This document shows, piece by piece, positions 2,399 to 8,651 of a stretch of 9,605 nucleotides of DNA. The notes under the pieces were generated by a model. That model worked only from the letters and a program-made list of their open reading frames with translations. It made no database searches and was not told where the DNA came from. The stretch spans positions 1 to 9,605 of the forward strand of contig JACRGO010000002.1 in NCBI GenBank assembly GCA_016212295.1, read 5' to 3'. The position numbers and the translations under genes are program-made. Source of the stretch: Nitrospinota bacterium (lineage in GTDB: Bacteria > Nitrospinota > Nitrospinia > JACRGO01). Every line of letters begins with the position of its first letter. The first letter of the stretch is position 1.

Positions 2399-3340
2399 TT
2401 AAGCGTCCCCGACCTCCGAGGCGGTCTTCTTTTTAACCAAAATCTTGGCTGCGGCCTTTATCTTGTCAGTTAGTATGCCCTGCAGTTTGCCGGGGTCGGA
2501 ATAGAGGGCCAGCTCTTCCTTGTCGATAACGTCCACGGCGCCGATCTCCCCGGCCCGGGTCCTGACCGCGCTCCCCTTTTGCGCTATGGAGCTTATGATG
2601 ATCACCGGGAGTGGGTAATGCAGCATCAACTTCTTCAGGAATTTTATTCCATCCATCTTGGGCATGATGATGTCGAGGGTCACCACGTCCGGCTCCAACT
2701 CCAATATTTTTTCCCTGGCCTCAAAGGCGTCCGAGGCCGTCCCCACCACCTCAATGTCCGGGTGGCCGTCCAGCGCGGTTTTAATGATCTGCTGAATCAG
2801 GCTGGAATCGTCCACTACCAGCACCTTTATTTTATATTTGGAAAAATATTTCTCTTTTTCCGAAAAATGGTGCGTTTGCTCGGATTTCTGAATGGCGCGC
2901 ACCTGTATATCATTGGTCCATGTCTTGTAATGCAGTTTCCTGCCGCTTGTCCCTCCGGTTTCCTCCCGGATGATGGGGATTTTAAATTCCTCAAGGACCC
3001 TTTTAGCGATCTCGATGTTCTTTTCGCCTATATTGGAAGAGCTGGTCAGGGATTCCGTCACAGCCGCGCCGCCGAAGACCATGGATTGCAGGTTCCTCAT
3101 GGAAGGATCGTTCCTGCTCATTATGTTGACCATTGTCCTTATGGAAAAATCGCCGTATTTCGCGTCGCCCTTGGTCCCCGCCGGCTGCGTAGGCAGCATA
3201 TAGTGGTTCATCCCGCCGAAGCCCTGCTTGCGGTCGAACAGGCATACAGCGACGCATGAGCCCAGCAGCGTGGCGATCAGGTAAGGTTCCTTGCTGACAT
3301 GAAATTCTCCGGGAAGTAAAAATATTCTTTTCTCTTCCAT
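2399..3340 (-). CDS. cheD: CheD receptor deamidase fused to a CheB-type receiver domain, no methylesterase domain
   Basis: A 313-residue two-domain protein. Residues 1-155 are CheD, which deamidates glutamines in chemoreceptors. ATLLGSCV supplies T24 and the nucleophile C29, GGMNHYMLP supplies H46, and a GG-TSGRK segment at 129-135 follows. A charged linker leads to a receiver at 170-280 with acidic pair D177/D178, phosphoacceptor D223 in LDIIMPKMDG, ISS at 249-251 and K274. The receiver resembles the N-terminal half of CheB (PVIIISS, then GAVDVIDKE), but only about 35 residues follow it, so the CheB methylesterase domain is missing. I infer that phosphorylation by the neighbouring CheA controls the deamidase, or that the receiver is a phosphate sink. 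Start: ATG with AAGGAG six bases upstream, overlapping the cheA stop codon, so translational coupling is likely. Confidence 0.9.
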   Translation of the reverse strand: MEEKRIFLLPGEFHVSKEPYLIATLLGSCVAVCLFDRKQGFGGMNHYMLPTQPAGTKGDAKYGDFSIRTMVNIMSRNDPSMRNLQSMVFGGAAVTESLTSSSNIGEKNIEIAKRVLEEFKIPIIREETGGTSGRKLHYKTWTNDIQVRAIQKSEQTHHFSEKEKYFSKYKIKVLVVDDSSLIQQIIKTALDGHPDIEVVGTASDAFEAREKILELEPDVVTLDIIMPKMDGIKFLKKLMLHYPLPVIIISSIAQKGSAVRTRAGEIGAVDVIDKEELALYSDPGKLQGILTDKIKAAAKILVKKKTASEVGDA

Positions 3341-3346
3341 TTAATG

Positions 3347-3353
3347 CTCCTTA
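3347..3353 (-). promoter_or_regulatory. Ribosome binding site of cheD-receiver, overlapping the cheA stop codon
   Basis: On the minus strand TAAGGAG joins the cheA TAA stop to an AAGGAG Shine-Dalgarno lying six bases before the ATG at 3340. This fixes the start and points to coupled translation of kinase and deamidase-receiver. Confidence 0.75.
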
Positions 3354-5534
3354 TTTATATTTGTTTCCAAACAGGTTGGACAAAAGCCCTTCCACGCTTA
3401 ACACCAACCCGACTCTCCCGTCGCCCATGATGGCCCCGCCCATGATATTTCTGGACTTGGAAAGCCCGTCCAGGCTTTTCAGCACCACCTGCTGCTGCTC
3501 CAGGAGTTCGTCCACCCATATCCCGGCCTCCTGGTCCTTGTTTTTTATCAGTATGCAAACCCTGTCCTTCATGCTTTCCCTGGGCCTCGAGGCATGGAAC
3601 AGCTCATCCAGCCGGATAATCGGAAAAAGTTTTCCACGCACGTTCACCGCCTCCCCGGTCCTCTTCACCGTAATGATCTGGTCCGGGGTCGGCTTGAAGG
3701 ATTCCAGGATGTTTATCATGGGAATTATATAGGAATTGTCCGCCACCTTTATGATCAGGCCGTTGATAACGCCGAGGGTCACGGTCAGAGGGGTCTGGAG
3801 GCGGACTATCGTTCCCTTCCCCTTTTCGGTGGTGATGTGGACGCTTCCGCCTTGTTTTTTTATCCCCGAAAGGACCACGTCCATCCCGACTCCGCGCCCG
3901 GACACCTCGCTCACCTTTTCCGACGTTGACAATCCAGGGAGAAATATCAGGTTTATGATTTCCTGCTCGGACATGGCGGCAAGCTCATCCCGGCCGCACA
4001 TTCCCTTGGCCTCCGCCACGCGCTTGATCTTTTCCAAATCAATCCCCTTGCCATCGTCCTTTATATTGACATGGAGATATTTATCATCGTTATACGATTC
4101 GATCAGTATTTCTCCCCTGGGCGGCTTGCCGGCCTTCTTCCTCTCCTCCGGGGACTCTATGCCGTGGTCAACGGTGTTTCGTACTATATGCATAAGGATG
4201 GCGTCAAGATCGTTCAGCAAACTCTTGTCCAGGTAGCTGTCCTCACCCGTGATGGTCAGGGTGACTTCCTTGCCCATTGACCTGGCCAAGTCCCTGACCA
4301 GCCGTGGGGTGTTGTTAAGTATCTGCCGGATTTCCACCCGTCTGAGCTGCATCAATGAGTCCTGGAGGGTGAATATCTGCTCCCCGAAGACCATGTTGGC
4401 GGATTTATATTCCTTCTTCAGGGCCGGGTCGATCTCCATCATGGCGTCCATTTTTTTCTGTATATAATTGAAGACCTCCCCTATGGTTATCAATTCCCCC
4501 ACGCCGTCGAGGAACATATCAATTTTTTCCTCGTTGACCCTGATGGTCTTGGCCATGGCCATTGACGCCTTGGGTTTTTCCTTTTCCTTCTTTTCTTCCC
4601 GCTTAGCGGCGGACTCTTCAGGGGCGGCCTCCTTTTCCGGCTCAACCGCTTCCAGAAGCTCCTTGATATCGTTGATAACGGAGAAAAAATACTCCATCAT
4701 CAATTCATCCATTTCCAGGTCCTGCATCTCAAAAACGGTTATGCTCTCCTCGATTTCCGTGATGATTTTTTCGATGTCCCTGTCATTGGCCTTTTTAAGC
4801 ATTTCCAGCAGGACCTTGAACTTTCCAAAAAAACCGGCGACCTCCTCCGCTTGGACGGGCTCCTCCTGCTTTTTGCACTTTCTTATATAATTATGGCACG
4901 GGACGAAAAATTCCGTTACCTCCAGCGCTTTAAAATACCACCGGGTCTTTTTTTCCTTTTCCTCCTTTTCCCTCTCCGCGACGTCGGTCTTTTCAAAACA
5001 CATTCCCAACTCTTCCAGTTGCTGCACGAATTCATGAAGTTGTGAATCCGACTGCAAGATTGCCTTTACCTTATGAAAAGCCTCGCATGTGCGTTGCGCG
5101 CAGAAATCCACGCTGAGAATGCCGGTATTTAATCGCTTGAAACATTGGTCCAGTTTCTCCAGGAAATCCGTGTCGGTTTTTCTCTCCTTGCGGTCCTTGG
5201 ATTCAGGGGACTTCAGGAAACCGTTGAAGATGCCCTTCAGGTGGTCCATGCCCTCGAAAAGGACATCAATGATTTCCTTGGAAACCACCTTTGTGTTGTT
5301 TTTCACCCAGTCCAGAATGTCCTCAAGCTTATGGGCGGTGTTCTTAAGGCTTTTAAACTGGAAGAGGCCGGCGGAACCCTTGATGGTGTGCATCCTGCGG
5401 AAAATGGACTCTATAAGCTGCATGTCCCCGGGGCCGTGCTCCAGGTTGACAAGATCATTGTCCATGGAGGCAAGGGCGTCCTTGGTTTCCGAAATAAAAA
5501 TATCTAAAAACTCGGAAAAATCTTCTTCTTTCAT
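3351..5534 (-). CDS. cheA: Chemotaxis-type histidine kinase CheA
   Basis: A 727-residue CheA. Order: Hpt/P1 domain (about 1-105, phosphorylated His H49 in RRMHTIKGSAGLF); a long helical, charged linker (about 110-325); P3 dimerisation segment (about 328-405, starting TIRVNEEKID); HATPase (about 410-582) with N box HIVRNTVDHGIE (449-460), DDGKGI (493-498) and GRGVGMDVV (547-553); and a CheW-like P5 domain (about 583-725). It would autophosphorylate in a receptor-CheW array and donate phosphate to receivers. A recognisable ferredoxin-like P2 domain is not seen. The linker instead holds several Cys/His (C131, C145, C150, H154, C179, C213, H214, C220) and two Glu/Lys-rich runs near 186-197 and 298-322. 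The ATG start opens directly into the Hpt helix; the leader is AT-rich without a clear Shine-Dalgarno. cheD-receiver follows after 10 bases. Targets are probably that receiver and the CheY-like protein upstream. Confidence 0.95.
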   Translation of the reverse strand: MKEEDFSEFLDIFISETKDALASMDNDLVNLEHGPGDMQLIESIFRRMHTIKGSAGLFQFKSLKNTAHKLEDILDWVKNNTKVVSKEIIDVLFEGMDHLKGIFNGFLKSPESKDRKERKTDTDFLEKLDQCFKRLNTGILSVDFCAQRTCEAFHKVKAILQSDSQLHEFVQQLEELGMCFEKTDVAEREKEEKEKKTRWYFKALEVTEFFVPCHNYIRKCKKQEEPVQAEEVAGFFGKFKVLLEMLKKANDRDIEKIITEIEESITVFEMQDLEMDELMMEYFFSVINDIKELLEAVEPEKEAAPEESAAKREEKKEKEKPKASMAMAKTIRVNEEKIDMFLDGVGELITIGEVFNYIQKKMDAMMEIDPALKKEYKSANMVFGEQIFTLQDSLMQLRRVEIRQILNNTPRLVRDLARSMGKEVTLTITGEDSYLDKSLLNDLDAILMHIVRNTVDHGIESPEERKKAGKPPRGEILIESYNDDKYLHVNIKDDGKGIDLEKIKRVAEAKGMCGRDELAAMSEQEIINLIFLPGLSTSEKVSEVSGRGVGMDVVLSGIKKQGGSVHITTEKGKGTIVRLQTPLTVTLGVINGLIIKVADNSYIIPMINILESFKPTPDQIITVKRTGEAVNVRGKLFPIIRLDELFHASRPRESMKDRVCILIKNKDQEAGIWVDELLEQQQVVLKSLDGLSKSRNIMGGAIMGDGRVGLVLSVEGLLSNLFGNKYK

Positions 5535-5570
5535 TATATTTTTTATTTAGAAAAACGAGAGGCCGGGAAC

Positions 5571-5598
5571 GGCGGACTTAACGCCCTTCGGGCGGACT
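5571..5598. repeat. 17-base GC hairpin, copy 2, with flanking direct repeat
   Basis: Bases 5580-5596 are identical to 1452-1468 (stem CGCCC/GGGCG). Here the hairpin sits across a direct repeat, GGCGGACTT, at 5571-5579 and 5590-5598. It lies in the leader of cheA, about 45 bases before its ATG on the minus strand, and could affect the mRNA 5' end; that is inference. Confidence 0.7.
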
Positions 5599-5608
5599 TT
5601 AAAGAATT

Positions 5609-5690
5609 AACATCGAACGTCGAAAAAGGAAGAAAGAATTTAACATACTTCGATGTTGGACGTTCGGTGTTCAATGTTCGATGTTCAAGT
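5609..5690. repeat. 7-base tandem repeat island between the receiver gene and cheA
   Basis: Six consecutive heptamers fill 5649-5690: TTCGATG, TTGGACG, TTCGGTG, TTCAATG, TTCGATG, TTCAAGT. A shorter block at 5609-5624 carries two heptamers in opposite orientation (TTCGACG, TTCGATG on the minus strand). Phase seven with drifting bases and inverted blocks is the same architecture as at 1469-1535, though the heptamer differs. Translated, the array spells a low-complexity LDVRCSMFDV-like peptide, which should not be taken as a gene. Confidence 0.75.
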
Positions 5691-5765
5691 TTTTCCCTCT
5701 TCTATATTTAGTATCTCGTTGATTCATAAACGTAAAAAATGGAAATCCCCATGCCGTGTTCCTAA

Positions 5766-6161
5766 TCAATCCTGGGAATCCGACGTGTCCGGCTTTTGCT
5801 TTATGACCTTGTTGACGGCGCTTAAAACGGCATTTTCATCGAAAGGCTTCATGATGTATCTTTTCGCGCCGGTTTTAAGGCATTGCATCACTATCTTCGC
5901 GTCCGAGACCGACGAGACCATGACTATATTGGCCTCGGGATATTTTTCGAGCACCTCCTTGAGGACCTGTGTGCCTCTTTTGAGCGGCATCTCTATGTCA
6001 AGGGTCATCAAATGGGGCTTGTGCTTATCGAAAAGCTCCACGGCCTCTTCGCCGTTTTTCGCCTCGGCTATGACCTCGATATTGTTTTCGCTCAATATCT
6101 TTTTAAGGAGCGCACGCATCAATGGCGAGTCGTCCGCGATAACTACCTTGGTTTCTTCCAT
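5766..6161 (-). CDS. Stand-alone CheY-like response regulator receiver
   Basis: A 131-residue single receiver domain with no output domain. It has acidic pair D10/D11 in IADDSPLM, phosphoacceptor D55 in LDIEMP, the conserved Ser/Thr position in MVSSVS (S83/S84) and K105 in IMKPF, so all phosphorylation residues are intact. The common MPxMDG motif after the phosphoacceptor reads MPLKRG. I chose the ATG at 6161 because GAGG lies eight bases upstream and it begins exactly at the first receiver strand. An in-frame ATG further upstream, at 6254, would add 31 residues translated from the repeat element and is unlikely. The gene lies between pilB and cheA, with repeat-filled gaps on both sides, so it may have its own promoter. 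It is probably phosphorylated by the neighbouring CheA; whether it acts on a flagellar motor, a pilus motor or another target is not visible. Confidence 0.9.
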   Translation of the reverse strand: MEETKVVIADDSPLMRALLKKILSENNIEVIAEAKNGEEAVELFDKHKPHLMTLDIEMPLKRGTQVLKEVLEKYPEANIVMVSSVSDAKIVMQCLKTGAKRYIMKPFDENAVLSAVNKVIKQKPDTSDSQD

Positions 6162-6196: not shown

Positions 6197-6384
6197 TAGT
6201 AAACGCAAAAAATAAGTAGACATGGGCCGCTCCCGCATCCGGCCGGATAGTCAACGCTTTTTAAAAAAGCGCCTTTAATTTTCTCAATAAATTTGGGGCG
6301 TTTCCGCATGTATACTTATTTTTTGCGTTTACTATCCGCTTCCTTGCCTGAAAAATCATGGCGCTTTTTAAAAAACGTTGACTA
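6197..6384. mobile_element. Outer MITE-like element with TA flanks, interrupted by a second copy
   Basis: The left end begins TA then GTAAACGCAAAAAATAAGTA (6199-6218). The right end, read on the minus strand, begins TA then GTCAACGTTTTTTAAAAAG. The short terminal inverted repeat is GT(A/C)AACG. Removing the inner element leaves about 99 bases between the TA dinucleotides. Joining the flanks over one TA gives CCCGTTTATATAATCGGG, an 18-base near-perfect palindrome (8 of 9 pairs), as expected if it entered a palindromic TA target. IS630/Tc1-mariner elements duplicate TA, so this is probably a non-autonomous relative, but no transposase is present and family assignment is inference. Confidence 0.6.
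6248..6334. mobile_element. Inner MITE-like element, same termini, opposite orientation
   Basis: TA at 6248-6249 and 6333-6334 bound 83 bases. The right arm (6307-6332) is the reverse complement of the outer element's left arm (6199-6224) with one mismatch in 26. The left arm (6250-6273) matches the reverse complement of the outer right arm with one substitution and one length difference in an A-run. The centre (about 6274-6306) is unrelated AT-rich sequence. Collapsing the insertion to a single TA regenerates CGGATATCCG, a perfect 10-base palindrome. Its left arm contains a CGCTTTTT/AAAAAGCG hairpin that any pilB read-through transcript would carry. Confidence 0.6.
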
Positions 6385-6401: not shown

Positions 6402-8651
6402 TTATGCGCCCGCAACGGGCTTAACTTGCAGAGCGGCCAGCTTCTTGGCCATTTCCGCCAATTTCCTGTCCGCCGAGTTTAAACGGAAGAGGCAGGACGT
6501 GATGACCTTATAGGCTATTTCAGGATAATTCTCCAGGGTCTCCCTGAGCTTGTCGCCAGGGAACGCCTTGACCCGGCTCTTCCCCTTGGAGATGATGGTT
6601 GCGTTCCTGGGTTTGTTCATCAATGCGCTCATTTCCCCGAAGTATTCGCCTGGCTGGGAAATCTCCGCCACCACGGCGCCCGCCTTTTTGATGACCAGGC
6701 TGCCTTGAATGAGTTGGTAAAAGGTGGTGTCCGTGTTTCCCTCCTTGATGATCATGTCGCCGTTTTCAAAGGTAAGTTCATCAGGAGTCAGAAGATATTG
6801 GGGAAGGGCCTCCTTCACATGCACGGTATGCTTCAGGGCCTCGTCAAGGGTGGTGATCCCGGCCCTGACCTTGGACAAGGCGTCCTGGCGAAGGGTCCTC
6901 ATGCCCTCCTTCATCGCCACCTTTCTTAACTGGTCCTCCGGCAATTGGGCGGTAATGGCCTGCTTGATAGATTCGTTGACCTCCATCAACTCATAGGCGG
7001 CCACCCTTCCCTTGTATCCCTTGCCCTGGCACGCGGGGCATCCTTTTCCCTTCATGATCTTAAGGTCCTTCAGATCATCCTCGAAAAAGCCCATCTCTAT
7101 CAATTTTTTCCTGTCGCGCTCAACGTCCCAGGCCGGATCGGCCTCCTTGCATTCGGCGCATATCCGGCGCATAAGGCGCTGGGAAAGAATCATGGTCAGG
7201 GCGGAGGACACCATGTAGCCTGGTATTCCTATGTCTATAATGCGTCCCACGGTGGAAGGGCAGTCGTTTGTATGAAGGGTGCTGAAGACAAGATGTCCTG
7301 TCATGGCGGCCTTGATGGCGATCTCGGCGGTCTCCGCGTCCCGGATTTCCCCCACAAGTATTATTTCCGGGTCCTGGCGCAAAAACGCCTTCAGGGCCGC
7401 GGCAAAGGTCATCCCGACCTCGTTCCGGACCAGAACCTGGTTGATGCCGGCAAAATTGAATTCCACGGGGTCCTCGGCGGTCAGTATCTTGTTGTCAACG
7501 TTATTCAAGGCGTTGACCGCGGAATAGAGGGTGGTGGTCTTGCCGCTGCCGGTCGGGCCGGTCACCAGCACAAGGCCGAAGGGGTTCTTGATGGCCTTAT
7601 TGAATTTCGCGAAATTTTCCGGGGAGAATCCGAGCTTGCCCAGGTCAACGTTAAGATTGGACTTGTCGAGTATCCTGAGTACCATAGACTCCCCGAACAA
7701 GGTAGGCAGGCACGACACACGGAAATCCACGGCCTGCTTCTTGCCCAGGCGCAGCTTGATCCTGCCGTCCTGGGGGACCCTTCTCTCGGCGATGTTCAAT
7801 GAGGCGAGGATTTTAAGGCGCGAGACAAGGGCGTTTTTTATCTGCAACGGAAGATTGAGGGAAACATACAGGGCCCCGTCCAGCCTGTACCGCACCCTGA
7901 AACTTTTTTCGTAAGGCTCGATATGGATATCGCTCACCTTCAACTTGATGGCCTTGGTGAGGATGCCGTTGACCAGTTTGATGATTGGGGCCGCGTCGGC
8001 GCTCAACTCGTCCTTTATCTCTTCTTCATCGCCCGCCTCCACGTCCTCCGCCGCCTCGGACACCAGGGAGCCGATATCGTCTATTTCCTTTATTTCCACG
8101 CCTGTTTCCTCTGACTCCTCCCCGATCTTTTTAAAGAAGGATTGATACTCCTCCGGGCTTATCTTGTAATATTTTTTATAGGCCTCGACTATGTCCTTTT
8201 CAGTGGTTATAACTGATTTTATGGAAAGCTGGGTGGCGTTGTGGACCTCCTCGATGGCGTCGGTGTTGGTGGGGTCGGCCATGGCGAGGGTCAGCACCTT
8301 GGCCGCTACCCTCACCGGGAAAACCATATGCTGCTTGGCGAGGTCGTACTGCACCAGGGAAATGGTTTCCGGGTTTATCATCAACTCGGAAATGCTGATT
8401 ACCGGGAGGTTCAGTTGGCGGCTGGCGAAGCTGACGATGTTTTCCGGCTCTATGACATCAAGCGCCGTGAGCGCCCGCACGAGAGTGGTCCCGGCCTTTT
8501 TCGAGAGGGCCACGGCCTCATCCAGTTGCTCCTTGGTGATTTGCCCCTCCTTTCGCAGCATTTCTCCAAGTTTGCTGGTGGAGGTCTGGCTCTTGCTTAT
8601 GGATTGCTTGAATGACGACTGCTTCGCCGTCTGGGGCGGGGTTGAAGCCAC
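6402..8651 (-). CDS. pilB: PilB/GspE-type secretion ATPase with C-terminal cyclic nucleotide-binding domain
   Basis: A 749-residue hexameric-type ATPase that would power type IV pilus extension (or type II secretion) at the inner membrane. An MshEN-like N-terminal domain covers about 27-135, though its Gly and Gln positions for c-di-GMP binding are partly changed (GTTLVRAL, ALDVI). The ATPase core has Walker A GPTGSGKT (365-372), Asp box ILTAEDPVEF (389-398), Walker B region ILVGEIRD (431-438), His box GHLVFSTLHTND (452-463) and a zinc tetracysteine (C498/C501, C538/C541). After the usual PilB end near 610, residues about 620-735 form an extra cNMP-binding domain, with the phosphate-cassette-like FGEMSALMNKPRNATI at 671-686. 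The start is GTG at 8651 with GGAGG nine bases upstream. pilC, pilT and pilin genes are not in the window; a GspE or MshE role is possible. Confidence 0.92.
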   Translation of the reverse strand: MASTPPQTAKQSSFKQSISKSQTSTSKLGEMLRKEGQITKEQLDEAVALSKKAGTTLVRALTALDVIEPENIVSFASRQLNLPVISISELMINPETISLVQYDLAKQHMVFPVRVAAKVLTLAMADPTNTDAIEEVHNATQLSIKSVITTEKDIVEAYKKYYKISPEEYQSFFKKIGEESEETGVEIKEIDDIGSLVSEAAEDVEAGDEEEIKDELSADAAPIIKLVNGILTKAIKLKVSDIHIEPYEKSFRVRYRLDGALYVSLNLPLQIKNALVSRLKILASLNIAERRVPQDGRIKLRLGKKQAVDFRVSCLPTLFGESMVLRILDKSNLNVDLGKLGFSPENFAKFNKAIKNPFGLVLVTGPTGSGKTTTLYSAVNALNNVDNKILTAEDPVEFNFAGINQVLVRNEVGMTFAAALKAFLRQDPEIILVGEIRDAETAEIAIKAAMTGHLVFSTLHTNDCPSTVGRIIDIGIPGYMVSSALTMILSQRLMRRICAECKEADPAWDVERDRKKLIEMGFFEDDLKDLKIMKGKGCPACQGKGYKGRVAAYELMEVNESIKQAITAQLPEDQLRKVAMKEGMRTLRQDALSKVRAGITTLDEALKHTVHVKEALPQYLLTPDELTFENGDMIIKEGNTDTTFYQLIQGSLVIKKAGAVVAEISQPGEYFGEMSALMNKPRNATIISKGKSRVKAFPGDKLRETLENYPEIAYKVITSCLFRLNSADRKLAEMAKKLAALQVKPVAGA

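Follow-up and report, generated by a model that had tools for sequence, protein, structure and literature searches.

Results

Gene content of the locus and domains of the encoded protein

The window, i.e. the whole stretch of DNA analysed here (9,605 nt), is one entire contig of a Nitrospinota bacterium, and the operon on it was seen up to the contig ends only. Its minus strand carries a gene for a CheD-receiver fusion, which starts with ATG, has no internal stop and encodes a single chain (Table 1). cheA and a cheY-like gene lie upstream; for the latter, the probable start is the ATG at 6161, and the listed open reading frame begins at a TTG at 6254. Downstream, the next gene, for a TIM-barrel protein, begins 12 nt past the stop of the fusion, so a methylesterase remnant does not follow it. 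At 6402-8651 the minus strand encodes a PilB/MshE-type ATPase that carries a cyclic-nucleotide-binding domain (PF00027) at its C-terminus.

Table 1. Positions of the fusion gene, its parts and the neighbouring chemotaxis genes in the window
Feature	Position	Strand	Remarks
CheD-receiver fusion gene	2399..3340	-	313 aa + stop
CheD deamidase domain, aa 1-150	2891..3340	-	T24, C29, H46 intact; CheC-contact site V94-T95
Interdomain linker, aa 151-169	2834..2890	-	predicted helix aa 154-168; length differs among relatives
CheB-type receiver, aa 170-290	2471..2833	-	D177, D178, D223, S250, K274
C-terminal tail, aa 291-313	2402..2470	-	point where CheB would run on into the methylesterase domain
cheA	3351..5534	-	10 nt upstream of the fusion; Hpt, dimerisation, ATPase and CheW domains
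cheY-like single receiver	5766..6161	-	upstream of cheA; groups with CheY-like receivers, apart from the fusion

The original prediction was that an intact CheD and a complete receiver are joined in one chain from which the catalytic half of CheB is absent. Pfam, NCBIfam and PDB matches agree with this. Pfam detected CheD at aa 48-148 (E 8e-23, 81 bits against a cut-off of 25) and Response_reg at aa 173-275 (E 2e-20). The same search of the 313 residues found no third domain and no CheB_methylest (PF01339), so the protein is not filed as a CheB. The CheD models of NCBIfam span aa 6-167 and its CheB models aa 170-307, both under the whole-protein cut-offs because each model covers half of the chain. 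The closest PDB sequences were Thermotoga maritima CheD (2f9z_C, aa 10-156) and the CheB receivers 6ymz, 1a2o and 3t8y (aa 162-306).

An AlphaFold2 model computed with 50 fusions (mean pLDDT 91, pTM 0.54) consists of two well-defined domains with helix 154-168 between them, whose mutual orientation is not reliable at this pTM. Foldseek matched the CheD half to 2f9z_C (TM 0.84 by target length, 36% identity in the structural alignment) and the receiver half to 3t8y (TM 0.89 by target length). A full-length match to the fusion was not found among the 50 matches listed. The architecture, made of known domains in a conserved order, is probably functional.

The fusion is a widespread conserved family

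A profile scan of the GTDB species genomes recovered 54 relatives whose match spans over two thirds of the query; almost all are full length. Adding the window protein, a second copy in its own genome, one receiver fragment and the protein of G138, a complete genome of a different phylum, brought the alignment to 58 fusions, about 55 of them full length. Each of 50 aligned members is exactly CheD plus receiver by Pfam (50/50). The hosts belong to Nitrospinota or Nitrospirota, Adiutrix and other Deltaproteobacteria, Planctomycetota, Lentisphaerota and one Omnitrophota (labels of metagenome-assembled genomes are the depositors'), a spread that the original prediction had not foreseen when it proposed a genome survey. 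A genus mate of the window carries the fusion at 77% identity, and it is also found in the closed chromosome CP026657 (Adiutrix-type Deltaproteobacteria) and in a complete genome of four contigs. In the phylum of G138, 20 of 24 species have it. Of 392 genomes in the Planctomycetota-type phylum, 30 have a match at 1e-60; unfused neighbours account for at least 4 of these matches. Among 77 genomes searched in the window's class, the fusion is confined to the window's genus, so transfer or differential loss may explain its presence there. These results show that the CheD-receiver fusions make up a conserved and widely distributed family rather than an isolated case. A description of it was not found in the open-access literature, searched mostly at title and abstract level.

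The second copy in the window's genome lies on contig C125 (L026:4216-7196), is 43% identical to the window's and belongs to the Planctomycetota-type branch. At 339-361 aa, the Adiutrix-type fusions (L054, L059, L060, L061, L062) exceed the roughly 312 aa of the other members. One of them, L059, was read out, and its additional residues form an Ala/Pro-rich insertion that separates CheD from the receiver. With this longer linker a rigid allosteric relay is unlikely in the Adiutrix type, and occlusion or tethering is favoured. Three loci (L158:2588-4135, L159:2976-4562 and L121:1477-3315) encode CheD at the C-terminal end of open reading frames of 515-612 aa. Pfam finds nothing in the N-terminal part of L121, which may be another fusion or an over-extension of the start codon.

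Catalytic and phosphorylation residues are kept

The residues that were predicted to be intact (T24, C29, H46, D177, D178, D223 and K274) are present and essentially invariant over the 58 fusions. For CheD, T24 is kept in 55/55, C29 in 55/56 and H46 in 56/56; this conservation across several phyla suggests that catalysis by the fused CheD matters. L058:8001-8936 has the CheD nucleophile Cys29 changed to Ser, with all other key residues kept. D177, D178, D223, S250 and K274 of the receiver are found in 58/58, and all marks of a response regulator are present (acid pair, phospho-Asp, Thr/Ser and Lys).

The receivers also have a signature of their own, I225, A253 and D273-K-[ED]-x-L-x-x-Y280. Two residues past the phospho-Asp, 55 of 56 fusions have Ile, versus Glu in 26 of 31 CheB receivers. 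Position 253 is Ala in the fusions versus Thr in CheB receivers, and the D-K-[ED]-x-L-x-x-Y motif stands where CheB receivers mostly have Lys-Pro. These sites cluster round the receiver active site and its beta5-alpha5 end, which makes a changed function or interface of the receiver plausible.

A Met-Phe pair, M101-F102 in Bacillus subtilis, marks CheDs partnered by CheC (PMC3513319). The window fusion, which does not class as CheC-partnered by this pair, has V-T at the site; V-V occurs in 45 of the 57 readable fusions and M-F in none of the 57.

The receiver is derived from CheB

A receiver tree was built from 31 fusions and 66 other receivers; with 121 columns, its deeper forks are weak. All fusion receivers fall into one clade (bootstrap 100, SH-aLRT 99), which joins the CheB receivers (99/89) and is apart from the CheY-like receivers, including the window's own. 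A CheY-derived receiver is ruled out by this tree, and the predicted CheB derivation was borne out by it. The CheD halves form one clade as well (91/81, not starred). The fusions thus have a single origin.

It had also been proposed that the methylesterase was lost after a fusion or rearrangement of cheB and cheD, with which the relatives of the CheD halves agree. Their nearest stand-alone CheDs include ones encoded directly upstream of cheB. In four Planctomycetota genomes, cheD and a full-length cheB lie in the same frame 12-33 nt apart, an arrangement that loss of the stop would turn into a fusion. Contig C148 of the window's genome has a complete cheB whose start is overlapped by an unfused cheD. 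A CheD-receiver-methylesterase intermediate was searched for and none was found. Judged from these sequences, the fusion most plausibly arose from a pair of upstream cheD and downstream cheB whose methylesterase half was lost.

Chemotaxis genes of the hosts and of the fusion loci

Chemoreceptors (MCPs) are encoded in all 22 fusion-bearing genomes checked. A full CheB is encoded elsewhere in 22/22 too, so the fusion does not stand in for CheB in these genomes. G138 and two Lentisphaerota have no CheD other than the fusion, and every CheD gene of two more genomes is of fused length. Weak and patchy CheC-family matches (the CheC profile is short) occur in 12/22 hosts, so CheC is not missing everywhere. 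Receptor deamidation has the target motif [AS]xx[QE]Qxx[AS]; it was seen in 6 of 11 readable host MCPs, at inconsistent places. Contig C70 of the window's genome carries three CheD-like genes (L138:1995-2450, 5555-6013 and 9782-10234, minus strand) among HDOD-like genes, as read from the sequence, and single-receiver genes. Their LGSC motif reads IGAGIA, VGVGIA and LCGSLV, and by this the three proteins look like CheD pseudo-enzymes.

cheA lies directly upstream of the fusion and in the same direction at 33 loci in several taxa (31 from the scan, the window and G138). Hpt, ATPase and CheW domains are present, and His49 is invariant, in all complete CheAs that were sampled (27/27). Judging from gene order and these domains, the product of the window's cheA is the probable phosphodonor of the fusion receiver. 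About a third of the fusion loci, including the second copy in the window's genome, have no cheA alongside. Most Planctomycetota copies follow a SurA/PpiD-type gene with no cheA nearby; such a gene stands directly before the fusion in L065, L069, L070, L071, L074, L081 and L085 (by Pfam in L065 only). The copy on C125 follows genes for a histidine kinase and a receiver-LMW-phosphatase protein.

Discussion

We propose, with a probability of about 0.6, that the fusion acts as a feedback regulator of the CheB kind, has CheD as its output and is switched by CheA instead of CheC and CheY-P. CheA, coupled to chemoreceptors via its CheW-like domain, would autophosphorylate and then phosphorylate the CheB-derived receiver at D223. 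The phosphorylated receiver would then alter how far the N-terminal CheD binds and deamidates chemoreceptors, and the adaptation feedback loop would be closed within one protein. The neighbouring cheA and the lack of variation at the phosphorylation residues would fit control by CheA in cis. Phosphotransfer from the CheA of the locus, the gating in cis and its direction, and the choice of receptors as substrate are inferred. By analogy with CheB, phosphorylation would activate CheD. After the logic of B. subtilis, where CheA is activated by CheD binding, it would have to release CheD.

In B. subtilis, binding of CheD to CheC and receptors outweighs its deamidase activity in importance (PMC3513319), so it may be binding, rather than catalysis, that phosphorylation gates. 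Going further, the receiver might control the docking of CheD on receptors, activating or releasing CheA, with deamidation incidental. We regard this as unlikely but worth keeping in mind. The F102E mutant of B. subtilis CheD keeps deamidase activity and loses chemotaxis (PMC3513319), and the Ser in place of Cys29 in L058 points the same way. However, T24, C29 and H46 are kept in nearly all fusions of several phyla, which suggests that catalysis matters.

A rather unlikely possibility concerns the Planctomycetota-type branch, including the second copy in the window's genome, which may serve other kinases and maybe a target that is not a receptor. The missing cheA, the SurA/PpiD-type neighbour in most Planctomycetota loci and the histidine kinase and receiver-LMW-phosphatase protein beside the C125 copy are consistent with it. 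However, all these genomes encode MCPs, so receptors are available, and the key residues are identical.

It is improbable that the receiver serves the adjacent CheA as a phosphate sink or as a module for docking to the array, with a constitutive CheD tethering the sink to receptors. Three observations are in its favour: packing between the domains is not confident in the AlphaFold2 model, linker length varies among relatives, and the window has a gene for a separate CheY upstream of cheA. However, the strict clade signature at the receiver active site favours regulation, and the receiver descends from CheB, where it gates the enzyme in cis (title of 1a2o). An assembly or frameshift artefact, raised by the original prediction and conceivable in that cheD and cheB adjoin in many genomes, has next to no chance and is refuted by sequence evidence: the fusion recurs in dozens of independent assemblies (among them the genus mate, the closed CP026657 and the four-contig genome), is under purifying conservation, forms its own clade and has no methylesterase found downstream.

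The proposed CheA-switched regulator resembles CheB in several respects. Its receiver descends from or within CheB receivers, and it is expected to be a CheA substrate, to modify receptors and to have its enzyme gated by the receiver in cis. Unlike CheB, its enzyme domain is CheD, lies at the N-terminus and stands without the methylesterase, and its receiver bears the clade signature. With the stand-alone CheDs of B. subtilis and T. maritima it shares the fold and the catalytic T/C/H; in contrast to them it carries its own receiver and lacks the M-F residues tied to the CheC partnership. Like the CheC/CheD/CheY-P system of B. subtilis, it would link the output of CheA to what CheD does at receptors, but within one chain and by direct phosphorylation, not via CheY-P and CheC. 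CheV (CheW-receiver) is a precedent for a receiver fused to an adaptation protein of the receptor array (PMC3513319), whereas its partner domain is the non-enzyme CheW. The fusion also differs from CheY, being neither a single-domain receiver nor within the CheY branch. A bolder and more tentative suggestion, which we find possible, is that CheA and the CheD-receiver protein make up an adaptation circuit complete in itself and different from methylation/CheB, CheV and CheC/CheD/CheY-P. In this circuit CheD would have become the direct output of a response regulator, and in some lineages (G138, Lentisphaerota) the fusion would have taken the place of free CheD.

Work on CheD has so far dealt with a separate protein under the control of CheC and CheY-P. 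The fusions keep the catalytic residues of CheD and not those of the CheC contact, which would make them a natural experiment on whether its enzymatic or its binding role is what matters. As single-chain proteins that often adjoin their probable kinase, they are good material for reconstitution. If our main reading is true, CheD as the output of a CheB-derived response regulator would amount to a direct kinase-to-deamidase feedback.
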